Shown here piece after piece: positions 3,290 to 61,837 of a stretch of 61,837 nucleotides of DNA (its first letter is position 1; each line of letters begins with the position of its first letter). The position numbers and the translations under genes are program-made. Source of the DNA: a virus; IMG/VR virus record IMGVR_UViG_3300028840_003061, positions 1-61,837 of that record. One strand, given 5' to 3'. The notes beneath the pieces were generated by a model. The model was given only the letters and a program-made list of their open reading frames with translations. It was not told where the DNA came from and did no database searches.

Positions 3290-3595
3290 ATGCCACCAAA
3301 AACTAAGGCTCAGTTAGAAAAAGAAATTAAAGAGCTTAAATGTATCATAAGAGAATTACGCTCTGAAGTAAAAACAGAGGATGCTGAACTATCGGATATG
3401 GATAGCAAAGCCATTGGTGTATTTCTCGATGATGATAAAATTTATAATTTAGCAGAAATTAGCTTTTCTTCTACGAAAAAGTCTGCTATGATTACAGATG
3501 TAAAGAAAGTATCTAGAAATAAGATGGATACTTCATCTGCACTTAGAAAAGCAATTATTGATGAATTAATTAAAGTTTCAAAAGGAGGAAGATAG
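3290..3595 (+). CDS. hypothetical protein with N-terminal coiled coil
   Basis: A 101-residue protein starting one base after the nuclease stop. Residues 1-35 form a Lys/Glu coiled coil and the rest looks like a small alpha/beta domain. The stop (TAG) shares its last base with the GTG start of the ERF gene, which is preceded by a strong AAAGGAGG. Its place between nuclease and annealase suggests an accessory role in recombination, but nothing in the sequence proves it. Confidence 0.65.
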   Translation: MPPKTKAQLEKEIKELKCIIRELRSEVKTEDAELSDMDSKAIGVFLDDDKIYNLAEISFSSTKKSAMITDVKKVSRNKMDTSSALRKAIIDELIKVSKGGR

Positions 3596-4329
3596 TGGCA
3601 GAACAAGCCGAAGAAATGATGGAGATTCCAGTAGCAACAGTTGCTAATATGGAGCAAAATCAATCAGACCTAATGAGCGAAAACAAGCGTCTTCACGAAA
3701 AAATGGCAGAGTTGCAAAGGGGTAAATTAATTTACTCTAAGATGCTGGCAGTTAAAAAAGACATCGGATCTGTAGGAAAAGATCAGGAAAATACATCACA
3801 AGGTTGGTCTTTTCGTGGTATTGATCAGTTCGTAAATGCTCTGCATCCAATTCTAAATAAACATGGAGTAGGTGTTAGTATGGACGTTAAGCAGAATGCA
3901 GAGACGTTCCAAACTGCGAAACTCGCTAACGGAAAAGAACGAGTTACAAAGAATACTAGAATTATTATGGAATACACGTTCTTTGCTGAAGATGGATCTA
4001 GTATTAAATGCTCTGTTCCTGCTGAAGGAGTTGATCCTGGAGACAAAGGTACCAACAAAGCCCTATCTGCGGCTCTTAAGTATTGCTTAATTCAGACTTT
4101 CTTTGTTCCTACTGAAGATATGGCTGAGGGGGATAAGGACATTGTAACTGTAGACGGAGAAGCAGAATCTAAAGAACCCAAGCAAGCTAAAAGGACATTT
4201 GCTAGAAAAGCATCGGCTTCGGCAAAAAAAGCTGAAGAACAGGCTCCGGAAGCAAAAAAGAAACGGTCTTTTAGAAAAAGTATGGTTAAACCAGCAAGTG
4301 AGGAGGTAGAAGGTGTCACAGAACTCTGA
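3595..4329 (+). CDS. erf: ERF-family single-strand DNA annealing protein
   Basis: ERF proteins anneal complementary single strands and drive phage homologous recombination or genome circularisation. This 244-residue protein has the ERF core at about residues 45-175: a start SKMLAVKKDI, the FRGIDQFVNALHPIL helix, a beta segment, then EGVDPGDKGTNKALSAALKY and IQTFFVPTED, which closely match the family signature. The N-terminal 40 residues are a predicted coil and the Ala/Lys-rich tail (190-244) looks disordered. The start is GTG with AAAGGAGG. It works with the nuclease at 2182 and possibly the RusA-like enzyme at 17489. Confidence 0.9.
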   Translation: MAEQAEEMMEIPVATVANMEQNQSDLMSENKRLHEKMAELQRGKLIYSKMLAVKKDIGSVGKDQENTSQGWSFRGIDQFVNALHPILNKHGVGVSMDVKQNAETFQTAKLANGKERVTKNTRIIMEYTFFAEDGSSIKCSVPAEGVDPGDKGTNKALSAALKYCLIQTFFVPTEDMAEGDKDIVTVDGEAESKEPKQAKRTFARKASASAKKAEEQAPEAKKKRSFRKSMVKPASEEVEGVTEL

Positions 4330-5270: not shown

Positions 5271-5274
5271 ATAG

Positions 5275-5304
5275 TTGACATACTGTGATGATAGTTGATA
5301 TATT
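5275..5304 (+). promoter_or_regulatory. sigma-70 promoter for structured RNA 1
   Basis: TTGACA (5275-5280), an 18-base spacer and TATATT (5299-5304). The expected start is about G5311, the first base of the closing stem of the RNA that follows. It sits directly behind the terminator, as expected for an independent unit. The promoter at 18433 has the same boxes and spacing and a similar TGTG-x-TG-x-TA spacer. Confidence 0.88.
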
Positions 5305-5310
5305 ATATTT

Positions 5311-5531
5311 GTAGGACGGTGCTGGAAGCTGTGGTTTGCGCCCTTTGATTAGGTTTAAAAGTAGGACAATTTAGCGCACTTACTTTGTTGAATAAATAGG
5401 CTGTTACAGTCCAACAAAAGGCCACTGGAGAAGCACAGAAAGATTGGGCACAGTCAACCGAAGCCTAGGTAGTAGGGAAGACCTTTCGATAGCCGCCGAC
5501 TATCATTGCCAGAGTAGCGACTGGCTCCTAC
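5311..5531 (+). ncRNA. structured RNA 1, paralogue of the RNA at 59987..60152
   Basis: This gene-free stretch starts at the expected transcription start and closes on itself: GUAGGA (5311-5316) pairs with UCCUAC (5526-5531). GUGCU (5319-5323) pairs with AGCAC (5432-5436). Further hairpins are UGCGC/GCGCA (5337-5341 with 5374-5378), a 7-bp stem from UUUGUUG to CAACAAA, GAUAG/CUAUC (5488-5504), and GCCAG/CUGGC (5508-5525) with an AGUAGCGA loop. The block TGCCAGAGTAGCGACTGG and the GGAAGCTGT motif near the 5' end recur in the second RNA. The closing stem is followed by ACTTTTT and then by the strong ribosome binding site of the gene at 5554. It could be an independent RNA or a cis-acting leader. 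I recognise no known family. Confidence 0.75.
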
Positions 5532-5553
5532 ACTTTTTATTAAGGGAGAGAGG

Positions 5554-5784
5554 GTGAAAAGAAGCGAGATGTTACATAAAATAAAAGAACATTATATGTT
5601 AGGAACGATTTACAAAACAGAGCCGGATAGATTCGCTGAAATTGTTTTAGATGCTATTGAGGAATCTGGTATGTTGCCCCCGTTAGCTAAAAACCCAAAT
5701 CCGACAGGAGGATGTTTATGTACTCTAAGGGAGTCTTGTTATAATTGCGGAGGCGGTAATGAATGGGAGCCTGAAGATGGTTAG
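5554..5784 (+). CDS. small Cys-rich protein of the MKRSEM...GMLPP type
   Basis: A 76-residue protein starting at GTG behind AAGGGAGAGAGG, 22 bases after the closing stem of structured RNA 1. It opens with KRSEM and has a central helix ending ESGMLPPL. A second copy of this pattern is encoded at 59373. The C-terminal part here is distinct: a Gly/Cys segment (CLCTLRESCYNCGGG) that could bind zinc. The RNA, this gene and the following membrane genes share one promoter. The function is unknown. Confidence 0.7.
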   Translation: MKRSEMLHKIKEHYMLGTIYKTEPDRFAEIVLDAIEESGMLPPLAKNPNPTGGCLCTLRESCYNCGGGNEWEPEDG

Positions 5785-52170: not shown

Positions 52171-52470
52171 TTACCACCCAAACTTTTGTCCATCTACCCT
52201 AGGTTTAGATTGACTTAATAGAACGCTAGATACTTTTGCGTCTAGTTTATTATAAACTTCCCGGTTATTCTTCTCATAAGTCTCTAACTTTCTTACGAAT
52301 TCGTCAGACGGATCGTCAATTTCATTGTGATCAAGATATACCAAAAACCCAAATAGGACGCTAGATGACACAAATGCGGCAACTTCAAACGACCCTCCAC
52401 CAAAAATAAGACTCTTTGTTGATATAATTAAAATAAGAAAAAACAAGATGTTAGATTTATTAATTGACAT
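52171..52470 (-). CDS. small membrane protein, first gene of the virion operon
   Basis: A 99-residue protein with two hydrophobic segments (about residues 8-20 and 25-45) and a soluble helical C-terminal half. It is the first minus-strand gene, behind a late element and GGGAGA. Holin-like or virion membrane roles are possible; nothing is diagnostic. Confidence 0.6.
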   Translation of the reverse strand: MSINKSNILFFLILIISTKSLIFGGGSFEVAAFVSSSVLFGFLVYLDHNEIDDPSDEFVRKLETYEKNNREVYNKLDAKVSSVLLSQSKPRVDGQKFGW

Positions 52471-52500
52471 TATTTAGTCTCCCAAGGTGTATTAAAGTAT

Positions 52501-52515
52501 AAATTAGTTGTTAAA
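52501..52515 (-). promoter_or_regulatory. late-gene element TTTAACAACTAATTT
   Basis: Minus-strand TTTAACAACTAATTT lies 31 bases ahead of the first virion gene. The divergent gap also holds a GTGTATTAA site (52487-52495) and the plus-strand promoter at 52527. Confidence 0.55.
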
Positions 52516-52526
52516 TTAATTTATTA

Positions 52527-52555
52527 TTGTACTTTGATGCCTTTTGTGTTATATT
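52527..52555 (+). promoter_or_regulatory. sigma-70 promoter for the gene at 52583
   Basis: TTGTAC (52527-52532), a 17-base spacer and TATATT (52550-52555). It diverges from the virion operon. Confidence 0.7.
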
Positions 52556-52582
52556 AATAAGAATTAACCGAAAAGAGGGTAT

Positions 52583-53029
52583 ATGTCAGAAAATGGTATG
52601 GGGTCTAAGGAGATTGTCGTAAAGTTATATTATGATATAACTATGTGTAATAATGAACTAGATCTACTTAAAGTCAATTCTAAGATAAGACAGCATATAG
52701 AAGGAGATGATTCAATTGGGGAGATTGAGACCATGATACTTCTAAGTGCAATCAAAATGAAGAGCAACGAGATAGCTCTTTATAATATAATGGATACTAT
52801 GGATACGCTGCTTCTTGCCAACGATATATCAGTTGTTATGTCCGATGAGAATTTTGACATAGAAGAAGAGGCAATTAAACAAAGTATGACGGATGAACTA
52901 AGTGTAGTCAAAGAAGGCAACATAATGTCTATAAGTGACGTATACTCTCGTAAGAATGGTGGCGATGATCTAGAAGAATCGTCGGGCGAAGATGATGAAA
53001 ATGCACCAGTTGACAGTGGTGACGAATAG
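52583..53029 (+). CDS. acidic hypothetical protein
   Basis: A 148-residue acidic protein starting at ATG behind AAAGAGGG. The first 75 residues are helical (LYYDITMCNNELDLLK), the C-terminal 30 almost all Glu, Asp, Ser and Gly. It is alone between the virion operon and the lysis cassette with its own promoter, and a promoter for the lysis genes lies inside its last codons. The acidic tail recalls DNA mimics or regulators, but that is only a possibility. Confidence 0.65.
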   Translation: MSENGMGSKEIVVKLYYDITMCNNELDLLKVNSKIRQHIEGDDSIGEIETMILLSAIKMKSNEIALYNIMDTMDTLLLANDISVVMSDENFDIEEEAIKQSMTDELSVVKEGNIMSISDVYSRKNGGDDLEESSGEDDENAPVDSGDE

Positions 53030-53037
53030 TGCTATGA
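53009..53037 (+). promoter_or_regulatory. sigma-70 promoter for the lysis cassette
   Basis: TTGACA (53009-53014), a 17-base spacer and TATGAT (53032-53037). The gap to 53165 also holds TGTGG/CCACA (53080-53100) and an ATGTGA/TCACAT inverted repeat with a 10-base spacer (about 53110-53131), which may be an operator or hairpin. Confidence 0.85.
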
Positions 53038-53165
53038 TAGTTATGGATTTATTGCCCCTTTTGTCACTATAGTTGAGGTGTGGGTAGTAAAAAGCCACAA
53101 ATATAGAAAATGTGATAATTAAGCGTCACATAGGAACTAATATAATAATAGTAGAGGAGTAAAAG

Positions 53166-53561
53166 TTGGGACTTTTTGATTTTATTGGAAATATTTTTAA
53201 GCCAGCCTCAGATTTAGTAGATTCATTACATACTAGCGATGAGGAAAGGTTAAAATTGGAAAATGAGTTAGCTAAGATAAAAGAAGCGGCTCTAGAAAAA
53301 ATGACAGAATTAGAAAAGGCTCGACTAGATGCCCTAAGTAAGGTGCAGGTGGCAGAGGCTAATTCTAAACATACAATTGTTGCTATCTGGAGGCCAGTAT
53401 CGTCTCTGTCGATGGTTGCGATTATAGTTGCAGCTAGTTTTAATTTAATCCCTACCCCAAGCCAAGAGTTTTATGAATTAGCTCAAATATTCTTAGGGGC
53501 TTACGTTTCTTCGAGGGGAATTGAGAAAGTTGCCGCAAGCATTGGGGGGTTGAGGAAATGA
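53166..53561 (+). CDS. holin of the 3TM/GTA type
   Basis: A 131-residue protein starting at TTG behind GAGGAGTAA. A Lys/Glu coiled coil (20-60) leads to an S-x-WRP motif (IVAIWRPVSSLS) and a hydrophobic C-terminal half with two or three membrane segments. This is the layout of the holin-3TM family found in gene transfer agents and phages. It should make the inner-membrane hole that starts lysis. It is the first gene of the cassette with the M15 peptidase. Confidence 0.8.
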   Translation: MGLFDFIGNIFKPASDLVDSLHTSDEERLKLENELAKIKEAALEKMTELEKARLDALSKVQVAEANSKHTIVAIWRPVSSLSMVAIIVAASFNLIPTPSQEFYELAQIFLGAYVSSRGIEKVAASIGGLRK

Positions 53562-53812
53562 AATACATAACAGAGGTACTACTGGTTGCTAATTTATTGA
53601 TATGCGGATACGCTTATTATAAAGTATATAGTGTATTAAATGTTGTGGATATGGTTACTAAGCAAATAATTGCTGTTGATAACTCGACTAAAGATATTAA
53701 GGATAAGCTAAAAGCTGCGGAAAAATCATCTCAGGAAGCAAAGGACGGAATAAAGAGGGTAGAAACTACTATAGATGAAATTAAGCGTAAACTGGATAAA
53801 TTGCCGTTATGA
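53558..53812 (+). CDS. membrane-anchored coiled-coil protein, i-spanin candidate
   Basis: An 84-residue protein with an N-terminal membrane segment (TEVLLVANLLICGYAYY) and a Lys/Asp/Glu coiled coil for the rest, the plan of Rz-type inner-membrane spanins. It lies between holin and endolysin, overlapping both (ATGA, TTATGA). No paired o-spanin is embedded; the small lipoproteins at 55876 and 56094 are possible partners. Confidence 0.6.
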   Translation: MKYITEVLLVANLLICGYAYYKVYSVLNVVDMVTKQIIAVDNSTKDIKDKLKAAEKSSQEAKDGIKRVETTIDEIKRKLDKLPL

Positions 53813-54156
53813 TTAGGATATTATTTACTGCATTACTATTATATGGGTACTTGTCTTATGCTACTCCTGTAGATATTGATAATACTGTAAAGGAACTAGA
53901 ATCCCTTTCAGGATGCGAATTGGTCATTACATCCGGATTTAGGACTCCTGAACATAATAAACGAGTGGGAGGGGCTCCTAACAGCTATCATCTATATAAT
54001 AGAGCTAGAGATGTGGTACCAAAAGACAAAAAATGTATAAGTATTAAAGAGTTAGGGAAGATTGCATGTAAAATAACCTCCTCTATCATATACAAAAAAC
54101 ACATCCATCTCGATAACCGTAAGAATCCTATATGTATTAAAGGTAGATATAAATGA
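53809..54156 (+). CDS. M15 peptidase endolysin with signal peptide
   Basis: A 115-residue protein. Residues 1-18 (IRILFTALLLYGYLSYA) look like a signal sequence or signal-anchor. The M15_3 core follows: TSGFRTPEHNKRVGGAPNS-YH-LYNRARD, with zinc His and Asp in the usual S-x-H-x6-D spacing, and a late HIHLD His. Such enzymes cut the peptide stems of peptidoglycan (D-Ala-D-Ala or L-Ala-D-Glu). The Gly usual in the zinc motif is Asn here. It is shorter than many but complete. Confidence 0.82.
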   Translation: MIRILFTALLLYGYLSYATPVDIDNTVKELESLSGCELVITSGFRTPEHNKRVGGAPNSYHLYNRARDVVPKDKKCISIKELGKIACKITSSIIYKKHIHLDNRKNPICIKGRYK

Positions 54157-54656
54157 CTAAATACGTAATAACGGCAAATAGCCGAAGATTTGATAATTTC
54201 AAAAGTAAAAACAAGGGATATGAGCATATTATATGTATACGAGATGTAGTATTACTCAGAGGCTTGCAGTTTAATCCTGAAACGGAAAAAATTATATTTC
54301 TTAGTGATTTTGATAAAATATACGGCTCAGAGAATCTTGAGGCCACTCTCCGTAGCATAGGGTATGACGGGAGAATACCTCCGCTAAGTTTGCCGGATTA
54401 CTCTGTAACCAGTGTTAATATTGAGCCGAGCCCTTTTACTTTAGATATACATAACCTTTCGACAAATACAGCATATATAGGGAGTGATTCATATTACAAT
54501 ACAACCGTAGAAATCCCCCTATACTATGAAATATTGCGAAGTGAGGTCAATAACTTACGTCAACAGATTATAGAAATGCAGCAATCACAAGCAATTTCGC
54601 CCTTAGTTATAGAGAGCCCCTTTATGCCAACATCCGGCGAGTCTGATGAGGAATAA
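54153..54656 (+). CDS. hypothetical protein
   Basis: A 167-residue protein overlapping the endolysin stop by ATGA. The first 80 residues look like a small alpha/beta domain (EHIICIRDVVLLRGL, then KIIFLSDFDKIYG). The middle is Ser/Pro/Tyr-rich and the end acidic. It belongs to the lysis transcript by position. No function is recognised. Confidence 0.6.
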   Translation: MTKYVITANSRRFDNFKSKNKGYEHIICIRDVVLLRGLQFNPETEKIIFLSDFDKIYGSENLEATLRSIGYDGRIPPLSLPDYSVTSVNIEPSPFTLDIHNLSTNTAYIGSDSYYNTTVEIPLYYEILRSEVNNLRQQIIEMQQSQAISPLVIESPFMPTSGESDEE

Positions 54657-54680
54657 AAAAAAATGGGAGCTTGCGCTCCC
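54656..54680 (-). terminator. terminator for the minus-strand cassette 55634..54731
   Basis: GGGAGC-loop-GCTCCC (54665-54680) with a run of eight T on the minus strand. On the plus strand the hairpin is followed by TTAAAAG, so it works mainly for leftward transcripts, though it may also slow rightward ones. Confidence 0.88.
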
Positions 54681-54730
54681 TTAAAAGTATGTGGTCGGAC
54701 GACCATGCGAATGCTAACATACTAGAACTA

Positions 54731-55099
54731 TTAATATTTTTTATAACCAGACATATCTTCGTCTTTGGCTATTCCTTTTCCAATTTTAATTTTCTTTAAA
54801 GCGCGTTTTCTAGCTTCAGCGCGTTTACGCTTCTCCTCTTTTTCCTTTTCTTCGCGTTCTTTTCTTTTAGCTTCTGCTTTTTCTACATAGGCTTTCCTGA
54901 CAGAATCTTCTCTCGCGAGACGGCTCTCGCTAGTTTTGTAGCTAGTCTTTACCCCTGGGCGCATCTCTTTTTCTACCGCTTCATCGCCAGATTTAGGATT
55001 AACTAAACGCCTCTCTCTACTAGCTTTAACCTCTTCTAGAGCCCTATCATATTGATAATCTTCGCCTTTTTTTGGTCTTTTTCGTCCGTATCTACCCAC
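54731..55099 (-). CDS. highly charged basic protein
   Basis: A 122-residue protein, mostly Lys, Arg and Glu, with an uninterrupted charged helix (about residues 68-105) and a short GKGIAKDEDM tail. Such proteins are often nucleic-acid-binding or disordered. It lies 11 bases after the exported protein gene. The function is unknown. Confidence 0.6.
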   Translation of the reverse strand: MGRYGRKRPKKGEDYQYDRALEEVKASRERRLVNPKSGDEAVEKEMRPGVKTSYKTSESRLAREDSVRKAYVEKAEAKRKEREEKEKEEKRKRAEARKRALKKIKIGKGIAKDEDMSGYKKY

Positions 55100-55110
55100 T
55101 TATTACCCTC

Positions 55111-55410
55111 TTAAAAGTTTATTTTTATAACCACTAATACTTCATTTCCTGATACGTTTACAGTACTCACTGAGCCATACATGGAGAAATCGTACTGTAA
55201 CCTTCCGCTAGATATAATATCGACTAAACTATAAGTATAAGCAGCATATTCTTTGTTAATACCAGTAATTCTTAGTATTTTCTCTGCTTTTTTTTCTGCC
55301 TTATCCGCAATCTTAGTCTTAGATAGGCCCTCATATAGTTTATCAAGTGCTTCATCAGCAAAAGCTATATTAGTTGTTAATAGAAGGGCAATGGGGAGTA
55401 AATACCTCAT
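55111..55410 (-). CDS. exported small protein
   Basis: A 99-residue protein read from ATG 55410, overlapping the upstream stop by ATGA; an earlier in-frame start at 55452 lies inside the neighbouring gene. Residues 1-18 (RYLLPIALLLTTNIAFA) form a clear signal peptide with cleavage before DEALDK. The mature part is helical, then beta (STVNVSGNEVLVVIKI). A periplasmic role is likely; no family is recognised. Confidence 0.68.
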   Translation of the reverse strand: MRYLLPIALLLTTNIAFADEALDKLYEGLSKTKIADKAEKKAEKILRITGINKEYAAYTYSLVDIISSGRLQYDFSMYGSVSTVNVSGNEVLVVIKINF

Positions 55411-55634
55411 TTTTCTTCGTCCTTCAGAATATAGTCCCCATGTTTTGGGCAATCGTGATCGTGTAAGTTATTAGGAATACCGAACACAGAGTCCGATCCG
55501 CATATACATTTCTTCTCCCAAGGCTGAATTTGACGCATCTTAACCTTCTCCCCTAGATACCCAGGAGGAAGTTCTACGTTATCGTCATCATCGTACCATA
55601 CTCTCTGATTTACATTTCCAAATATACTAGGCAT
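55407..55634 (-). CDS. small protein with possible zinc site
   Basis: A 75-residue protein with an Asp run (WYDDDDNVELPPGYLGE) and a Cys/His cluster (CICGSDSVFG, HDHDCPKHGDY) that could bind zinc. It heads the minus-strand cassette, behind an AAAAACAACTAGT element (55689 to 55677) similar to the late motif. The function is unknown. Confidence 0.6.
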   Translation of the reverse strand: MPSIFGNVNQRVWYDDDDNVELPPGYLGEKVKMRQIQPWEKKCICGSDSVFGIPNNLHDHDCPKHGDYILKDEEK

Positions 55635-55720
55635 AATTACTACCTTACCATAAAAAAAGTTAAAATACTACCTTGTACTAGTTGTTTTTCTGTGGTAGTG
55701 TATTATTTATTGGAGGAAAA

Positions 55721-55879
55721 ATGAATAGATTAACTGTAAACGCATTATTGACAATAGCTGCTATTTTCTCAGCAGACCTACTTTTCTTTTTTATGGGGCT
55801 ATCAGTTCCCGGACCGCTTTTTCAATTACTAATGTTTGTTGGGCTGGTCAGTGTATTACAATTTATGGAGCTGTCATGA
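55721..55879 (+). CDS. small membrane protein
   Basis: A 52-residue protein read from ATG 55721 behind TTGGAGGAA; the frame is open further upstream without a ribosome binding site. Two hydrophobic segments are separated by a short GLSVPGP turn. An AGTGTATTAT site (55697-55706) lies in its leader. It overlaps the lipoprotein gene by ATGA. Unknown role. Confidence 0.6.
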   Translation: MNRLTVNALLTIAAIFSADLLFFFMGLSVPGPLFQLLMFVGLVSVLQFMELS

Positions 55880-56097
55880 AATTTTTAGTATTTTCTCTTT
55901 CTTTACTTCTGGTTGGCTGTGGCCCGAAATTTAGCGTGGGCGACAGGGTTTATTTCTTCAGTAGCTGCACCGGCATAGTAAAAGAAGTTATCCAGTGGTC
56001 CGAGGCAGTCTCATATAGGCTGGACCCCGCAATATGCGACCTAGAGCCGATTAAACCCGTAGTTATGCCCCAAAAAGCCCTGAGGGGCTCACAGTGA
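55876..56097 (+). CDS. small lipoprotein, copy 1
   Basis: A 73-residue protein with a lipobox (LLLVGCG, Cys at residue 15) after a short signal. The mature part reads KFSVGDRVYF, then SCTGIVKEV, a small beta domain. A related arrangement (KFTTGDVITN, FCTGTVVDI) is in the next gene, so the two look like diverged copies. The DNA here is clearly more GC-rich than the surroundings. Phage lipoproteins can block superinfection at the envelope, a role to consider but not shown. Confidence 0.7.
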   Translation: MKFLVFSLSLLLVGCGPKFSVGDRVYFFSSCTGIVKEVIQWSEAVSYRLDPAICDLEPIKPVVMPQKALRGSQ

Positions 56098-56360
56098 GGT
56101 TTTTACAGTTAGGTGCTGTCTTTCTATGGCCAATCATCTTGGGCTGCTCTACGGCTCCCACAGGACCTTATACTAACCATAAGTTCACGACTGGTGATGT
56201 TATAACTAACGGATTCTGCACAGGAACCGTTGTAGATATCTTTAATTTCAGTGTCTTAGACGAAAATAGATACAAGGTAAAAGACGTTAAGTGTACTAAC
56301 GGAAAGGAGTATTATTATGCAATTTTCGGAGAAAACGGATTTAGAAGAGTTAGCCGATAA
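56094..56360 (+). CDS. small lipoprotein, copy 2
   Basis: An 88-residue protein starting at GTG in a TGTGA-type overlap. The signal ends in IILGCST, a lipobox with Cys near residue 18. The mature part shares the layout G-D-V/R-x...C-T-G-x-V with copy 1 but is longer and ends basic. It is more AT-rich than copy 1, so the two have different recent histories despite being adjacent. Confidence 0.7.
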   Translation: MRFLQLGAVFLWPIILGCSTAPTGPYTNHKFTTGDVITNGFCTGTVVDIFNFSVLDENRYKVKDVKCTNGKEYYYAIFGENGFRRVSR

Positions 56361-56541
56361 TATACGCAACTATCTAGAATCTTTAGAACATTCTGAAATA
56401 GAACATCTCCTTGCTGCTTTAATTTCTGGTCATGGAGTGCCATATAAAGCCAGAGGCTTAGGTATTATGGCGGCAGATGTTGATTTTTATTTAAGAACTG
56501 GATATATAAACCCTAACCAAATGGAGATTATTAAGAAATGA
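56317..56541 (+). CDS. hypothetical helical protein
   Basis: A 74-residue protein starting at ATG within the end of the lipoprotein gene, behind GGAGTATT. It is helical (LADNIRNYLESLEHSEIEHLLAALI) with a GHGVPYKARGLG turn. It overlaps the next gene by ATGA. No family is recognised. Confidence 0.55.
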   Translation: MQFSEKTDLEELADNIRNYLESLEHSEIEHLLAALISGHGVPYKARGLGIMAADVDFYLRTGYINPNQMEIIKK

Positions 56542-56831
56542 ATGCGGAAGAGGCCAGAAATAACGTGGCGACTTATATGAGAGCCCAAGAAAAGGAATTA
56601 GATACCAGAAAGAAACAAATGTTGGTTGCTATTTTGGATATTATTTCTAATAAATCTTGCAATGGGTATAGTATTATCACCTATGTTATAGACGATAAAA
56701 TGAAAACATTTTCTAAAAAACATAAGAAACTCGCTATTGATTTTTTAGAACATAACCTAAACGGCTTAGGTTTTACTGTAAAATGTCAACTTTCTATTAA
56801 CAAAGATAATGTCTTGGTCATTGAGTGGTAA
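56538..56831 (+). CDS. hypothetical protein
   Basis: A 97-residue protein with a helical N-terminal half and a beta C-terminal end (TVKCQLSINKDNVLVIEW). It overlaps the metalloprotease-like gene. Unknown function. Confidence 0.55.
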   Translation: MNAEEARNNVATYMRAQEKELDTRKKQMLVAILDIISNKSCNGYSIITYVIDDKMKTFSKKHKKLAIDFLEHNLNGLGFTVKCQLSINKDNVLVIEW

Positions 56832-57207
56832 ATATGGAATGGTACTACGAAAAGGTAACACTCAAGTATGCATAGATACTAGAATTATAACAATGTCTCC
56901 ATGCTCAAAAAGAAACTATCGACTATTCCTATCATATTTGTTCCACGAATTAGCTCACATTACCTGCGCAGACTCTGGACTTTATCATAACTACCACAAT
57001 GTAGAACCAACCAATTCTAAAGAATTACAGACATTTAGACGAGTAGCTTTTAAAGCGGAAAGGTTTGTAGACAAGAAAGCAGAGGAATTAATGTCCGTAT
57101 ATTTCCCGGATATCCCGTTTAGAGAGAATTATACCGAAGACGATAAGTCTTGGTTTTATATGATGTTTTTAGATAAATATTACAAAAAGGATAAATTCAA
57201 TGCATAA
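56809..57207 (+). CDS. putative zinc metalloprotease (HELAH)
   Basis: A 132-residue protein with FLSYLFHELAHITCADSG, an HExxH zinc motif about residues 46-50, followed by HNYHNVEP, a possible third ligand region. This recalls SprT- or WLM-like small metallopeptidases. There is no signal peptide, unlike the lipoprotein at 9227. The start is uncertain: ATG 56809 overlaps the previous gene, and an in-frame ATG at 56839 is also possible. Neither has a strong ribosome binding site. Confidence 0.65.
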   Translation: MSWSLSGKYGMVLRKGNTQVCIDTRIITMSPCSKRNYRLFLSYLFHELAHITCADSGLYHNYHNVEPTNSKELQTFRRVAFKAERFVDKKAEELMSVYFPDIPFRENYTEDDKSWFYMMFLDKYYKKDKFNA

Positions 57208-57715
57208 AGATAGAAACATCAAGTTAACCCCTATACCAGGTTTTGAGAAGGAGTATGCTATTACTAAATGTGGTCAGATATGGTCATATTTTAAAAATGA
57301 CTGGAAAATGTTAGAGAATCTGAATGGTTATCGTAGAGTCGGTTTGCACAAGAATGGTAAATTACATCGTATTTTAGTACATCGCTTAGTTATGTTGACT
57401 TTTGTTGGAGCGTCTAATTTACAGGTTAATCATATAAACGGCATTAAAAATGATAATAGACTAGAAAATTTAGAATACGTTACTATATCCGAAAACTTAA
57501 AACATGCGCACCGCATAGGGTTGCGGATTAATAGAAAAGGAGAACTTAATGGTGGGCACGTATTAAAGGAGCAGCAAGTATATAAAATAAGGTTCGAAGA
57601 AACATCTTCATTAAATTCTATTGCAAAAAAGTACGGTGTCAGTAAAAAACTTATATTTAATATAAAACATGGTAAGGCATGGACTCATATAACAGAGGAT
57701 TTCTATGATAACTAA
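57200..57715 (+). CDS. HNH homing endonuclease with NUMOD4 and HTH domains
   Basis: A 171-residue protein: NUMOD4-like start (LTPIPGFEKEYAITKCGQIW), HNH core (LHRILVHRLVMLTFVG, then VNHINGIKNDNRLENLEYV) and a C-terminal HTH (LNSIAKKYGVSKKLIFNIK). It is inserted in the operon with overlaps on both sides and closely resembles the enzyme at 60204. It is probably a free-standing homing endonuclease. Confidence 0.88.
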   Translation: MHKDRNIKLTPIPGFEKEYAITKCGQIWSYFKNDWKMLENLNGYRRVGLHKNGKLHRILVHRLVMLTFVGASNLQVNHINGIKNDNRLENLEYVTISENLKHAHRIGLRINRKGELNGGHVLKEQQVYKIRFEETSSLNSIAKKYGVSKKLIFNIKHGKAWTHITEDFYDN

Positions 57716-58436
57716 AGATAAATATGGGGCGTTGTCCCAAATTCAGCCAGACGGGACCTTGGAAGGGGGGGATTCTGCTGTGTGGACAGGGCACTACCTA
57801 TACCTCACTGGTGAGAAGTACCCCTTCGTAGAGACTTTTGAAGTAAAACCAGGGGCTTATGTGCGCCACCCCGATCCTAAAATGACCAATAACGGCTTTG
57901 GTGCATATTACAAGCATCCTTGGGCTGGGTGTATCTCCCGCGACCAGCTAACAGGCATCATCGCCGGTTTAATAAGCCAAAAGAAGCGCCTATCCCTGTT
58001 AAGGCTGATTATACATCACGGGTTTAGGTTATTTTTATTTTCATATAACACTATAGATAACGGAAAAGACCCAGACACCGCTGCCTGGAAATTTCCAGAT
58101 TTAACTCTTTTTGATATATGGTCAATGTATTTACGAGGTTTTGGTATTCTTTCTTTTTTATTTTGGCCAATTTTATGCGTCCTAGACCTTCATCTACTGT
58201 TAAACACGATACATGTAAATAGAGACGGTGATGATGACCAAATTAACTATGCGATAAAACTCTTTATTGCTGTAGAACACGTTCCGACTCCAACAAGTAA
58301 ACTATCTTTTAGTTTACTAAATAAGTCCTCTCTTTTAAAAAAAATACATAATTACTGGTGTGGGTGGAGGAATAACTGCGACATGTACTATTTATACTTT
58401 AATAAATTCAAGGAGTTGCGTAATGTCAGCAAGTAA
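57705..58436 (+). CDS. mosaic protein: conserved N-terminal domain and membrane-associated C-terminus
   Basis: A 243-residue protein. The first 95 residues (GALSQIQPDGTLEGGDSAVW, then CISRDQLTGIIAGL) are encoded by DNA much richer in G+C than the rest, with codons unlike neighbouring genes. The remainder is AT-rich, with two hydrophobic stretches (LIIHHGFRLFLFSYN and ILSFLFWPILCVLDLHLLL). The composition break suggests that this gene was acquired from, or recombined with, a different genome. I recognise the N-terminal type as conserved in phages but know no function. Confidence 0.6.
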   Translation: MITKDKYGALSQIQPDGTLEGGDSAVWTGHYLYLTGEKYPFVETFEVKPGAYVRHPDPKMTNNGFGAYYKHPWAGCISRDQLTGIIAGLISQKKRLSLLRLIIHHGFRLFLFSYNTIDNGKDPDTAAWKFPDLTLFDIWSMYLRGFGILSFLFWPILCVLDLHLLLNTIHVNRDGDDDQINYAIKLFIAVEHVPTPTSKLSFSLLNKSSLLKKIHNYWCGWRNNCDMYYLYFNKFKELRNVSK

Positions 58437-58875
58437 AAAAGAGGAGAAACGAGATTCTAAAGGTAGGATTCTTAAAAAAAAGAAGTGTATTAAATGCGGA
58501 AATATATTTGAAGCTCCTGCTGGAGGCAGGAATAGTTGTTGTTTGAGAACTAAAGAAAGCAAGACCCGTCCTAAAATAAAAGAGGCTCACAGTAGACATT
58601 TAATATACAAAAGAGACGGGTATTTGTGCTATTATTGCGGCATTCACCTCTTTAATGTGAACTCATCTCAAATAACCCTAGATCATGTTTATCCGCAATA
58701 TTTAGGCGGAAGACATACTGCCAGCAATTTAGTAACATCGTGTCTTGCTTGTAATAATAAGAAGCAGGCTACAATTGATGTCGATCGTATAAACGAAACG
58801 CTAGAGGACGTAAACCGAAGAAATGAGACTTTTGGGATTCCTTCTAATAAGAAGATAAATACTACAAGCTCCTGA
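58423..58875 (+). CDS. HNH endonuclease
   Basis: A 150-residue protein read from ATG 58423 behind AAGGAG. A Cys4-type zinc knuckle (CIKCGNIFEAP, CCLR) precedes the classical HNH: IYKRDGYLCYYCG, TLDHVYPQYLGGRHTASNLV and CLACNNKK. This is the McrA-like HNH with two CxxC pairs, a different class from the neighbours at 57200 and 60204. It may be a homing or anti-competitor nuclease. Confidence 0.85.
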   Translation: MSASKKEEKRDSKGRILKKKKCIKCGNIFEAPAGGRNSCCLRTKESKTRPKIKEAHSRHLIYKRDGYLCYYCGIHLFNVNSSQITLDHVYPQYLGGRHTASNLVTSCLACNNKKQATIDVDRINETLEDVNRRNETFGIPSNKKINTTSS

Positions 58876-59139
58876 GAGGCCGCAGAATGAGCTTTTATAT
58901 AAACTGCATGTCTTGGTATACATTTAGTAAAAAAAACCATTGTGCGCCTGCTCAGGGCGCGAGAAACAGTAGTGTATGTAGTGTCTTGTGTGTTTTTTAT
59001 ATAAAAAAACTCCCCTGAGTGTATTATCTTGTAGACTTTTAAATAAAAATAAACTAAAGTGTGATATAAGAGAGTACTGGAGCGGTTGGAGGCAGCAGCC
59101 TGGTATGGTTAAGTTTTATCATGAAAGGATAGATAAGTT
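58876..59139 (+). other. intergenic region
   Basis: 264 bases without a convincing gene. It contains a short open frame (58887..59018, 43 residues, Cys-rich) that I do not accept, an AT palindrome TTTTTTATATAAAAAA near 58992, an AGTGTATTAT site (59018-59027) and a small AGGC-AGCA-GCCT hairpin near 59091. A weak promoter could lie at 59030-59070. Confidence 0.4.
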
Positions 59140-59376
59140 ATGAATAATACTAAAATTACTGGAAAAGTAACAATAGATGTGGAAGATTTTGATAGACTAA
59201 GAGATGCCTCAAAGAAACTAGATCGTATATACGAGGTGGCTGAATGCATAAAAATAAAGCATACTGAAACTTATAGAGAACCAACGACTGCCGGATTTGC
59301 CGGAGGCGAGCCGTATGTTGCAAACGAGGACCACGAAAAAAATAATATTATTTTGAATATTAAGAGGATTCTATGA
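59140..59376 (+). CDS. hypothetical protein
   Basis: A 78-residue protein starting at ATG behind AAAGGATAGA. It opens with a short beta-helix (GKVTIDVEDFDRLRDASKKLD) of the type seen in many phage small proteins. It overlaps the next gene by ATGA. The function is unknown. Confidence 0.6.
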   Translation: MNNTKITGKVTIDVEDFDRLRDASKKLDRIYEVAECIKIKHTETYREPTTAGFAGGEPYVANEDHEKNNIILNIKRIL

Positions 59377-59657
59377 AAAGAAGTGAGATGGTAGGACATA
59401 TTGCCGCAGAATTAGAGGAGATGCTTTCTACCTTAGAAGCTAGGCCTAAAACTAGGCCGTATATTACCGACAGGTTTGCTAATAATCTTTTAGATATGCT
59501 GGAGGGGTTTGGTATGTTGCCTCCAGTAGAAGATCCGGCACATAGACACGATTTATCTCGATATATATGGGATTATGAAGATGGTAGTTTTAATCAACTT
59601 GTGAACGAGTTTTTAGAAGAAAACGAAGAACTTATGGAGATGTTGGGAGACGAATAG
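59373..59657 (+). CDS. MKRSEM...GMLPP-type small protein, copy 2
   Basis: A 94-residue protein that shares with the product of 5554 the start KRSEM and the helix end GFGMLPPV. The C-terminal half here is acidic, without the Cys segment. Such proteins are common in phages without known function. This copy faces the region of structured RNA 2, as the other lies behind structured RNA 1. Confidence 0.65.
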   Translation: MKRSEMVGHIAAELEEMLSTLEARPKTRPYITDRFANNLLDMLEGFGMLPPVEDPAHRHDLSRYIWDYEDGSFNQLVNEFLEENEELMEMLGDE

Positions 59658-59671
59658 GAGTGTATTAACTC

Positions 59672-59872
59672 TTAGATTGGTTTTTTAAATATATGCAGCG
59701 GGGTTTTATCTAACCTGTAATACTGTATCATCCTTTTTAAAGCCCTACGCGGGTTTCTAAGCGTATTTGATAGCAAAAAGGTATACTGACCCTCCTCCAA
59801 ATAGATCATGCCGTACAGGCCCTCTGGGAGGCTTTCAGAGATTACTCTAACTGTTCCGATTGTTTTATTCAT
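59672..59872 (-). CDS. hypothetical protein downstream of structured RNA 2
   Basis: A 66-residue basic protein read from ATG 59872 behind ATAGGAAA; an earlier in-frame ATG at 59896 lacks a ribosome binding site. Segments LPEGLYGMIYLEEGQYTFLL and RRALKRMIQYY suggest a compact alpha/beta domain. It lies 115 bases downstream of RNA 2 in the same direction, so the RNA could be its leader. A T-run (59908-59903) stands between them. Confidence 0.55.
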   Translation of the reverse strand: MNKTIGTVRVISESLPEGLYGMIYLEEGQYTFLLSNTLRNPRRALKRMIQYYRLDKTPLHIFKKPI

Positions 59873-59902
59873 TGATTTCCTATCTGAGATATACATTTAA
59901 GT

Positions 59903-59940
59903 AAAAAATAGCTATCACCAGGCCCCCAACGATCTGGGAT
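59903..59940 (-). terminator. possible terminator downstream of structured RNA 2
   Basis: On the minus strand CCCAG pairs with CTGG across a G-rich loop, and TTTTTT follows after GATAGCTA (59908-59903). The stem is short, so efficiency is doubtful. Confidence 0.35.
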
Positions 59941-59986
59941 TTGAGGTAACATGCCTTATCCTGCATACCTACCTGGTAATAACTAA

Positions 59987-60152
59987 GTCTACGAAACCAG
60001 TCGCTACTCTGGCACATGCGAGGTATTCTTGCCCTTATTCGCTCTGCTGACACGTTTGACTCTATGTCTGTGCGTTCTAGTATCCCCTATCAAGGTCTTA
60101 GCTATTATAACTAAGCTTGGCTTTGGCTACAGCTTCCGCACCTTTCGTAGAC
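59987..60152 (-). ncRNA. structured RNA 2, paralogue of the RNA at 5311..5531
   Basis: The transcript expected from the promoter at 60185 closes on itself: GUCUACGAAA (60152-60143) pairs perfectly with UUUCGUAGAC (59996-59987). GUGCG near the 5' end pairs with CGCAC in AACGCACAGA, where RNA 1 has GUGCU/AGCAC. A CUUAG/CUAAG hairpin lies in the first half. The 3' hairpin CCAG-AGUAGCGA-CUGG is identical in loop and flanks to RNA 1. Shared blocks are GGTGC, GGAAGCTGT, GCACAGA, GTCAA and TGCCAGAGTAGCGACTGG. The total is about 166 bases. No convincing ORF lies in it. Confidence 0.75.
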
Positions 60153-60156
60153 ATAT

Positions 60157-60185
60157 AGTATACTAAATGTAGTGTATTAAGTCAA
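60157..60185 (-). promoter_or_regulatory. sigma-70 promoter for structured RNA 2
   Basis: On the minus strand TTGACT (60185-60180), a 17-base spacer and TATACT (60162-60157). The start would be near G60152, the first base of the closing stem. Two AGTGTATTA sites overlap it. Confidence 0.85.
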
Positions 60186-60194
60186 GTGTATTAT
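60171..60194 (+). promoter_or_regulatory. paired AGTGTATTA sites over the RNA 2 promoter
   Basis: AGTGTATTAA (60171-60180) and AAGTGTATTAT (60184-60194) lie 14-15 bases apart. One fills the spacer next to the -35 box and the other abuts it. A repressor or activator site is the simplest reading. Confidence 0.45.
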
Positions 60195-60203
60195 TTTTTA
60201 AAA

Positions 60204-60746
60204 TTACTCGTCTTTCCAGGAGCGGTTATTTACAATGTCTGCTATGGTAGCTTTTGATACTCCGTACTTTTCTGCTAACTCCCCATAAGTAGAGCCACCT
60301 TTTTTCTCTTCTCGGATACTTCTAGCCTTGTTTATGTTGAGTTTTGAGCGTCGAACTTTTTTTACTGTCCCCAAAACCTCCACCGAATGTCGGTAGTTTT
60401 CTTTCTGCGTCACTAACTCTAGGTTAGATATATGGTTGTTTAAGGTGTCCCCGTCTATGTGGTTTATAACCAAGTCTTTCTTTAAGTCTCCTTTGAATTT
60501 CTGATAAACAACCCTATGTAACGTTAATTTCTTATATTTATACTGCACATGAACACGAGTTCTCGGGTCTTTCTTAGTCTTTTTTAAATGGTGAGTTAGC
60601 TTTCTCCAAAACCCTTTGGTGCTTCTCTTACCTGTACGCTGGATAATTGTGTATATAGTTCCGTCTTCTTGTATATGGTAGTCTGGGTCCTGGCATAACT
60701 GCCGCACTAAGTCGTCGTTTGTTGCAATCAATTTACCTGATCTCAT
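60204..60746 (-). CDS. HNH homing endonuclease with HTH domain
   Basis: A 180-residue protein starting at ATG behind AAAGGAGG. The HNH core is KKLTLHRVVYQKFKG, then VINHIDGDTLNNHISNLELV, followed by a C-terminal HTH (TYGELAEKYGVSKATIADIV). It shares this plan with the enzyme at 57200. The upstream 60780..60803 carries a second pair of AGTGTATTA sites. Confidence 0.88.
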   Translation of the reverse strand: MRSGKLIATNDDLVRQLCQDPDYHIQEDGTIYTIIQRTGKRSTKGFWRKLTHHLKKTKKDPRTRVHVQYKYKKLTLHRVVYQKFKGDLKKDLVINHIDGDTLNNHISNLELVTQKENYRHSVEVLGTVKKVRRSKLNINKARSIREEKKGGSTYGELAEKYGVSKATIADIVNNRSWKDE

Positions 60747-60779
60747 AATAACCTCCTTTTTAGGTAGTTTATCACATTG

Positions 60780-60803
60780 GTGTATTAAATGCTAGTGTAT
60801 TAT
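60780..60803 (+). promoter_or_regulatory. paired AGTGTATTA sites ahead of the HNH gene
   Basis: GTGTATTAA and AGTGTATTAT, 15 bases apart, repeat the arrangement at 60171-60194. They lie 35-55 bases ahead of the minus-strand HNH start. Confidence 0.45.
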
Positions 60804-60872
60804 CTTATTATATTCTTTTTTAAAAATTTGTATATTATAGAGTGTATAATGTTAATGATTTCAAGCACATAC

Positions 60873-60908
60873 GCTCTGGGTGTCCGGAGCCGAGTTCTTC
60901 TTTTTTTT
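60873..60908 (+). terminator. terminator shielding the sigma-54 promoter array
   Basis: GCTCTGG, a GTGT loop and CCGGAGC form a 7-bp stem (one G-U; 60873-60890), followed after CGAG by TTCTTCTTTTTTTT. A GGGGTACCCC palindrome (60910-60919) follows directly. Confidence 0.65.
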
Positions 60909-60922
60909 AGGGGTACCCCCCC

Positions 60923-60938
60923 TGGCACGCTTCTTGCA
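60923..60938 (+). promoter_or_regulatory. sigma-54 promoter 1
   Basis: TGGCACGCTTCTTGCA matches the sigma-54 (RpoN) consensus TGGCACG-N4-TTGCA at every fixed position, with GG and GC at the required -24/-12 spacing. Transcription would begin about 11 bases downstream, near 60949. Confidence 0.85.
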
Positions 60939-60963
60939 ATAGCAAAATCCATACCAAAACCGT

Positions 60964-60979
60964 TGGCACAAAAAATGCA
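60964..60979 (+). promoter_or_regulatory. sigma-54 promoter 2
   Basis: TGGCACAAAAAATGCA keeps the full TGGCAC and the invariant GC with exact spacing; the first T of TTGCA is A. It is 41 bases downstream of promoter 1 in a direct repeat. Confidence 0.75.
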
Positions 60980-61005
60980 ATAGCAAAATCCATACCAAAA
61001 ATCTC

Positions 61006-61021
61006 TGGCACAGAAATTGCA
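61006..61021 (+). promoter_or_regulatory. sigma-54 promoter 3
   Basis: TGGCACAGAAATTGCA keeps TGGCAC-N5-TTGCA exactly. It is 42 bases downstream of promoter 2, the third unit of the tandem repeat. Confidence 0.8.
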
Positions 61022-61197
61022 ATCCTATTTAATACTCCACAGATCTCCACCACCGTCTAGGCTCTAAACACTGACCAAAAGTTCAACACCTACTTAACTT
61101 CCCGGAACCACTAAACAATTCTCACATTCTCATTTTGCTATACAGAAGTTCGACAGTCTTCAGTACTCTTCAGTAAGTGATTCCAGTTACTTACGTT
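61022..61197 (+). other. G-poor leader between sigma-54 promoters 3 and 4
   Basis: 176 bases without a gene. The plus strand is notably poor in G up to about 61140. Near the end CTTCAGTA occurs twice (61157-61177) and GTAAGT/ACTTAC forms an inverted repeat (about 61173-61194) just before promoter 4. These are candidate binding sites; no enhancer-protein site is recognised. Confidence 0.4.
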
Positions 61198-61213
61198 TGG
61201 CACATCGAATGCA
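61198..61213 (+). promoter_or_regulatory. sigma-54 promoter 4
   Basis: TGGCACATCGAATGCA keeps TGGCAC and GC at exact spacing. It is the promoter nearest to the first early gene, with a predicted start about 50 bases before ATG 61273. Its flanks are unrelated to the tandem repeat. Confidence 0.75.
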
Positions 61214-61272
61214 ACAAGTTAAGGCAACACTTAACAGAGGGGCTCTCAGAGCTTCTCAAGGGAGATTGAACC

Positions 61273-61647
61273 ATGTATACAATTAAAGAACTAAAACAAG
61301 AGATCAAGTCAAGCCGTCAGGATGCCTTAGAGGCTCGTCAAGCGATTAAAGCAATCGAATCAATGCAAGAGTCAAGAACTAAGAAAAGTCTCCTTAGAGA
61401 CGCTACTAGACGCTTAGAGAGAGCGTTAAGAGACTTAAAGAGCTTTAAGGAAGAGTTAGCAGCTCTAAAACAGGAAAATGTATACAAGCCAGACTTCGAC
61501 CTTTGCTATAACTCCAGGAAGTCTTTAAAAGTTCACTTGTCCAACTTAGTTGCCACATTCGGAGAAGAGTTAGTCCGAGACATGATAAAGGAAGTCAAAC
61601 TCCATCGTAAACCTAGAACTAATAAACCCCAAACAAAGGCGGCCTAA
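61273..61647 (+). CDS. coiled-coil protein, first gene of the sigma-54-driven operon
   Basis: A 124-residue protein starting at ATG behind AAGGGAGA. Residues 1-75 form a strongly charged coiled coil (SRQDALEARQAIKAIES), then a short globular stretch (VHLSNLVATFGEELVRDMI) and a basic tail. It is the first product expected after infection if the sigma-54 array drives the early arm. No family is recognised; a host-takeover role is only a guess. Confidence 0.7.
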   Translation: MYTIKELKQEIKSSRQDALEARQAIKAIESMQESRTKKSLLRDATRRLERALRDLKSFKEELAALKQENVYKPDFDLCYNSRKSLKVHLSNLVATFGEELVRDMIKEVKLHRKPRTNKPQTKAA

Positions 61648-61648
61648 T

Positions 61649-61837
61649 ATGCCAGTAGAGCAAATAGAATATTATAAACTACGCATTATCGCATTGATGG
61701 ACCGAATCGAGGATGAAACCGGAAATCTCTTAAGTGAGATTCCGGGACTTGACTCCATTGAGGATAGATTCTGGACTTCACTAGATAGAGGCTACGAACA
61801 AGCCTTAATGTGCATCCACAATGAATTATGTAAAATA
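61649..61837 (+). CDS. N-terminal part of a small hypothetical protein (gene cut by the window ends)
   Basis: ATG 61649 follows the previous stop by one base and the frame stays open for 63 codons to the end of the window, finishing on a codon boundary. It continues in frame at positions 1-99. The product is mostly helical (YYKLRIIALMDRIEDETG). No function is recognised. Confidence 0.65.
   Translation, partial: MPVEQIEYYKLRIIALMDRIEDETGNLLSEIPGLDSIEDRFWTSLDRGYEQALMCIHNELCKI

Follow-up and report, generated by a model that had tools for sequence, protein, structure and literature searches.

Does the structured RNA at the far end of a 61,837-nucleotide viral sequence stand on its own as an RNA gene, or is it the leader of the small gene that follows it? 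The first-pass annotation of this sequence (the window, meaning the whole stretch of DNA analyzed) had described the RNA as the second of a pair under apparent operator control. We refer to the two RNAs as copy 1 (m1) and copy 2 (m2); the coordinates of their features are collected in Table 1.

Copy 2 belongs to a large family of structured RNAs

Copies 1 and 2 have in common GGAAGCTGTNG and, near the 3' end, the exact 18-mer TGCCAGAGTAGCGACTGG. With the 18-mer alone as the query, a search of 2.9 million viral contigs returned four contigs, all of which also carried the 5' core sequences (G/A)GAAGCTGTGG and CCACTGGAGA, neither being part of the query. The set was enlarged by further core-pattern scans and by one scan using only the pattern of helix P4. 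A covariance model, R1, was built from 22 aligned sequences with the window left out, and the family, assembled from 69 distinct sequences, was enlarged afterwards. Applied to the whole 61.8-kb window, R1 located copies 1 and 2 and no third place, matching copy 2 at 59988-60151 on the minus strand with 39.3 bits and an E value of 2.2e-8. The model also detected one or more copies in nearly all other contigs, L068/G150 being the sole weak case (E value of 0.0045), and it revealed extra copies beyond the pattern selection, some of them in tandem, in L053, L061, L071, L079, L052, and L049. Tandem or second copies were found in a good share of the contigs. These data strongly support the earlier proposal of a structured RNA that is the second of a pair, and they extend it to a large phage RNA family.

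The sources covered were Rfam, IMG/VR, INPHARED, and the literature. At the Rfam gathering score, the window had no match to any family, GOLLD, ROOL, and OLE included, and permissive searches returned nothing meaningful for m2, m1, L005, and L031 (E value of ≤10) or for seven other loci (E value of ≤5). ARAGORN called no tRNA or tmRNA in the window. Literature searches by core sequence strings and by topic, their scope being work other than that on bioRxiv only, yielded no matching family. Judged against Rfam and the literature searched, the RNA class is new, a preprint description being possible, and its function may be of a known kind. The exact long-form pattern occurred in one contig, phage-like and from a Dependentiae bin, among 85,000 prokaryote genomes and was absent from 100 other genomes of that phylum; a plasmid search with one member gave no convincing match. 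The DnaB-like protein of the window phage, used as a query, had no relatives among the viral contigs.

Table 1. Coordinates of copy 2, copy 1, and associated features in the window
Feature	Positions	Strand	Evidence or remark
Structured RNA copy 2 (m2), closed by the 10-bp P1	59987..60152	-	Covariance model R1; fold z of -2.5
P1 5' strand, GTCTACGAAA	60143..60152	-	Perfect complement of 59987-59996
P1 3' strand, TTTCGTAGAC	59987..59996	-	Perfect complement of 60143-60152
P2 5' strand, GTGCG	60137..60141	-	Partner CGCAC at 60070-60074; P2 covaries in the family
P2 3' strand, CGCAC	60070..60074	-	R1 match
Conserved internal loop, 5' strand, GAAGCT	60131..60136	-	Near invariant among 69 distinct members, an invariance imposed in part by the search patterns
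Internal loop, 3' strand, TAGAA	60075..60079	-	Divergent; family consensus TGGAGA
P4 5' strand, CCAG	60009..60012	-	Exact 18-mer common to copy 1 and four viral loci; P4 covaries
P4 loop, AGTAGCGA (family A-GU[A/C]GCG-N)	60001..60008	-	Conservation tally
P4 3' strand, CTGG, abutting P1 directly	59997..60000	-	18-mer and R1 match
Promoter-like site, TTGACT-17-TATACT	60157..60185	-	-10 hexamer ends 5 nt ahead of P1; p of about 0.0025 against positions within the same sequence
AGTGTATTA repeat in the promoter spacer	60171..60179	+	Putatively operator-like
AGTGTATTA repeat touching the first base of the -35 hexamer	60185..60193	+	Putatively operator-like
Y-shaped stem with long closing helix, then TTTTTT	59903..59984	-	Terminator-like; fold of -31.3 kcal/mol, z of -3.9
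Small downstream gene	59672..59872	-	ATG at 59872 after AGGAAATCA; frame open from 59896 too
Structured RNA copy 1 (m1), canonical core, U5 after P1	5309..5533	+	R1, 82.4 bits, E value of 2.9e-19
Copy 1 promoter-like site, TTGACA-18-TATATT, without AGTGTATTA	5274..5304	+	p of about 0.0012

Covariation defines the family fold, from which copy 2 departs in one loop strand

The members share a fold in which P1 (6 to 12 bp) closes the RNA and is followed by a CG linker and P2 (GCGUG/CACGC). Between P2 and P3 is an internal loop in which GGAAGCU faces UGGAGA; about 40 to 160 nt of variable sequence separate P3 from P4; and P4, a 5-bp stem with the loop A-GU(A/C)GCG-N, leads through its 3' strand straight into P1. 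On a MAFFT alignment, 94.6% of the cells were paired, with two-sided changes in 16 of the 22 pairs. The corresponding values for the 69 distinct sequences, whose alignment was fitted to the structure and is biased towards it, were 95.9% and 20 of 22. Slid controls were 30 to 47% paired (31 to 44% on the MAFFT alignment), and none of 500 shuffles did as well. All eight modeled P1 pairs of the family covary. The conservation of the core loops was imposed partly by the search patterns; unbiased subsets, namely, the 18-mer scan, the second copies found with the covariance model, and the full matches of the P4 scan, mostly keep these loops. P3 is wholly missing in the P4-scan members L090, L100, L104, and L094. 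We considered a further helix, P5, immediately 5' of P4, and a pseudoknot within the variable region, but claim neither, as the support was weak (combined p of 0.007; 4 of 31 individually).

In copy 2, the 10-bp closing stem noted previously does pair perfectly on the minus strand, and P4 is present as CCAG/CTGG with the loop AGUAGCGA. P3 is GUA/UAC. The internal loop is intact in copy 1, as GGAAGCU/UGGAGA; copy 2 retains GGAAGCU and has UAGAA opposite it, versus UGGAGA in 67 of the 69 distinct members. The same type of divergence was seen in the L049 copy at 226-415. Folding of a 181-nt stretch containing copy 2 gave -51 kcal/mol (z of -2.5), better than 198 of 200 shuffles. Copy 1 alone, unlike copy 2, did not beat its shuffles to that degree, and folding energy is therefore not the deciding evidence. 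Judged from its sequence, copy 2 is a diverged paralogue, either a specialized version or one losing function. The break in the near-invariant UGGAGA strand means that copy 2 may be decaying; a specialized version is favored because P1, P2, P4, and the promoter are intact.

Two further arrangements were observed among the family contigs. A second stem element, with the flanks CTTGAAT...CTTGAGG and an interior that is not conserved, lies beside or between the RNA copies of L053, L013, L019, L032, L005, L012, and L022. L034 has partial copies at 2464-2602 and 5499-5614, one with the 5' core and the other with the 3' core, and an ERF gene between them.

Promoter-like sites and U-runs coincide with the two strands of P1

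The family, its fold, and the positions of its signals are established by the sequence comparisons. A promoter-like site (p < 0.02) lies ahead of P1 in 14 of 69 members, compared with 1.4 expected; these sites are sigma-70-like, and in most of them the -10 hexamer ends 4 to 6 nt ahead of P1. Directly past P1, 25 of 68 members have a U-run of at least 4, compared with 3.6 expected. Both predicted transcript ends therefore fall on the two P1 strands. A strong promoter is found directly upstream in about 20% of members. Many others are located between operon genes, the second of which starts about 20 nt beyond the RNA; some copies may thus be parts of mRNAs, and the intra-operon members may be processed from them.

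A self-cleaving ribozyme, or another catalytic RNA that processes phage transcripts, would share the compact junction, the conserved internal loops, and the often intercistronic location. However, no conserved nucleotide outside P1 marks a cleavage site, the ribozyme families of Rfam gave no match, and nothing would be left to process in the many members whose P1 has a promoter of its own or ends in a U-run. We consider catalysis improbable.

The copy 2 promoter is flanked by repeats that copy 1 lacks

The promoter reported for copy 2 was located at 60185-60157, as a sigma-70-like site with TTGACT at 60185-60180, a 17-nt spacer, and TATACT at 60162-60157. The claim that two AGTGTATTA sites lie at this promoter and none at that of copy 1 was likewise borne out; the sites flank the -35 hexamer, one in the spacer and one at its first base. 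AGTGTATTA is the most frequent 9-mer of the window, with 10 occurrences on the plus strand versus 0.38 expected, and 9 of these fall in the last 9.4 kb (52470-61837), versus 0.08 expected. We infer that AGTGTATTA is a site for a repressor or another protein. Separate control of the two copies is plausible, because these repeats, whose number is far from chance, occur only at the copy 2 promoter.

Many of the AGTGTATTA repeats at 52470-61837 sit in short gaps past stop codons or ahead of ribosome-binding sites, an arrangement that is stoperator-like. The stoperators of mycobacteriophage L5 are asymmetric repeats in one orientation that are found throughout the early region, many of them between genes in short gaps. 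The AGTGTATTA repeats resemble them in asymmetry, single orientation, early-region location, and short intergenic gaps; the two differ in sequence, and the likeness concerns the repeats only.

Upstream of copy 2 and on the same strand is a gene for an HNH endonuclease with an HTH-like C-terminal part (60204-60746, minus strand); AGTGTATTA-like repeats lie ahead of this gene, at 60779 and 60794. TGCAATAGCAAAATCCATACCAAAA forms a perfect 25-bp direct repeat with 41-bp spacing in a noncoding stretch at 60935-61000.

A terminator-like stem separates copy 2 from the downstream gene

Copy 1 follows the family plan at its 3' end, with U5 after P1. Copy 2 instead has a Y-shaped stem followed by U6 at 59984-59903, ahead of the small gene. 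The T-run previously placed at 59903 is present (TTTTTT, 59908-59903), and it lies 3' of a long terminator-like stem at 59984-59910 that was absent from the earlier annotation; 1 of 200 shuffles folded as well as this stem. The distance of 115 nt from the end of the RNA to the start of the small gene (ATG at 59872) was also correct. A PHROG search with that gene found no match. Related small genes (MKRSEM...) are present at 5554-5784, starting 20 nt past copy 1, and at 59373-59657, near copy 2 and on the opposite strand.

The first-pass annotation had held a leader to be as possible as an independent RNA. As a cis-acting leader, riboswitch-like or an attenuator, the RNA would serve the following gene, and many members do have a gene with a ribosome-binding site starting 13 to 45 nt past P1, 54 of 67 next genes being co-oriented with the RNA and some members having a U-run between P1 and that gene. 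The other 13 of the 67 next genes, however, lie on the opposite strand, and the neighbor tallies contain no recurrent downstream gene family such as a riboswitch or leader would have. Members often start a few nucleotides past an upstream stop codon in mid-operon, and tandem copies occur. For copy 2 itself, its own promoter, the two flanking AGTGTATTA sites, and the terminator-like stem with U6 before the gene make a leader role less likely than an independent RNA. Together with the coincidence of the family promoters and U-runs with the ends of P1, these observations do not sustain the equal standing of the two readings, and we regard a leader as unlikely.

The family is linked to recombination genes rather than to terminase

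No gene is adjacent in all loci. An ERF-type recombinase gene was found within 1.5 kb of the RNA in 9 of the 17 contigs tested, compared with 1.9 expected (p ≤ 5e-5), a comparison in which the choice of ERF followed a first neighbor tally and relatedness among some contigs is possible; in later-added contigs, ERF was near the RNA in 3 of 7. Copy 1 has an ERF gene (3595-4329) on one side and a DnaB-like helicase gene on the other.

The phi29 pRNA is a short RNA of a double-stranded DNA phage with paired ends and a multi-way junction. The new family resembles it in size, in the mutual pairing of the 5' and 3' ends, in the junction, and in its restriction to double-stranded DNA phages, and terminase genes lie near some copies, as they might for a packaging RNA working on the portal/terminase motor. 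Nevertheless, 4 of 31 contigs had a large terminase gene within 1.5 kb, compared with 3.9 expected, which is no enrichment; the linkage is to early recombination genes; and Rfam gave no match. We think a packaging role very unlikely indeed.

An RNA partner of a phage protein system, such as a retron or other reverse transcriptase, a Ro60/Y RNA pair, or an AbiF-type toxin with an RNA antitoxin, would be alike in outline, with a closed P1 and a structured core. Against such a partnership, RVT_1, TROVE, and Abi_2 were each detected in 0 of 69 contigs, many of which are partial, in searches whose positive controls were detected, that for Abi_2 under its cutoff, and a universally adjacent gene is lacking. 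This reading is likewise very unlikely.

A proposed role for copy 2

We favor, as the probable explanation, that copy 2 is a discrete phage RNA gene, a paralogue of 5309-5533 in an uncatalogued family, and most likely an early RNA acting in trans. Transcription would begin at the first base of P1 from the sigma-70-like promoter and end near 59903, in the Y-shaped terminator, so that the RNA made would measure roughly 250 nt; these ends, like the operator function, are predictions from sequence. The RNA would fold as a P1-closed junction that has P2/P3 as arms, a variable arm region, and P4 stacking on P1; two conserved patches, the internal loop (GGAAGCU/UGGAGA) and the P4 loop (GU(A/C)GCG), would face the junction. 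As to partner and effect, our guess is that an abundant early RNA, acting in trans, serves as a scaffold or decoy by binding a host factor of wide conservation. Candidates for this factor are the ribosome, RNA polymerase, an RNase, and the tRNA pathway. Copy 2, altered in its internal loop, would serve as a second version that a repressor controls.

Put, EAR, and 6S-type RNAs, which act on RNA polymerase, are early phage or stable host RNAs with their own promoters, and the family is like them in these respects. It differs from them in its topology and in having no Rfam match, and copy 2 has no downstream operon to antiterminate.

Short forms and further subclasses occur in cultured phages

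In blastn searches of cultured phages, m2 and the long-form members found no family match, and only the short form did. The P3-less form GGCGTGGAAAGCAGACACGC, used as the query, led to cultured phages. R1 scored five of them, whose blastn matches had covered the P2 hairpin region only, namely, Pseudomonas phages Persinger, PotUPM1, Orisa01, and vB_PaeS-D14H and Ochrobactrum phage POI1126, with E values of 1e-6 to 1e-10 and with P1, P2, and P4 in place. The RNA of Persinger, at about 23.3 kb, is about 100 nt long; a promoter-like site precedes it by 5 nt, and P1 is followed at once by a perfect terminator. Matches in Aeromonas phage APT65 and Caulobacter phage BL47 were not accepted.

A probable third subclass has the P2 loop GAUGGA/GAAGGA and the P4 loop UAUCAAG. 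It comprises the loci L117, L118, L119, and L120, found in Caulobacter phage DMCA, Komagataeibacter phage phiKX1, Acidovorax phage AP1, and Pseudanabaena phage Pan3, and the second copy of L104. R1 gives the UAUCAAG subclass no score, and its link to the family therefore lies in P1, P2, and P4 as judged by eye. A tRNA-like element with a T arm and an acceptor stem lies inside the variable region of the RNA in L094 (7066-7296, minus strand), where ARAGORN made no call, and in L119 (Pan3; 1497-1659).

GOLLD and ROOL RNAs are often near tRNA genes, and tRNAs can sit in GOLLD linkers (PMC12286853). The new family is like them in being a highly structured and apparently trans-acting phage RNA, and similar ties to tRNA are seen in the POI1126 copy, which adjoins tRNA-Gln, and in the inserts of L094 and Pan3. 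In contrast to GOLLD and ROOL, which are 600 to 900 nt long, the members are 100 to 290 nt, the fold and conserved core differ, Rfam has no match, and most carriers lack a tRNA gene in the vicinity.

A broader reading, which we put forward tentatively and hold to be doubtful, is that of a phage RNA superfamily, present in Pseudomonas and Ochrobactrum phages and, by sequence signature, in those of Caulobacter, Komagataeibacter, Acidovorax, and a cyanobacterium; its subclasses would be long, short, and tRNA-carrying. Its RNAs, encoded early in recombination/replication modules, might act on the host translation or tRNA machinery as RNA-only or RNA-protein particles, and the window phage might carry two functionally distinct, differently controlled paralogues. 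A widespread structured phage RNA outside the RNA catalogue would compare with the discovery of GOLLD or ROOL. Its role is directly testable, as the RNA is small, usually 100 to 200 nt, and is carried by cultured phages whose hosts are amenable to genetics. The RNA sites of the cultured phages are unannotated or, in Orisa01, lie beneath a "hypothetical protein," and annotators, who now leave such a region blank or give it that name, gain a model for it.
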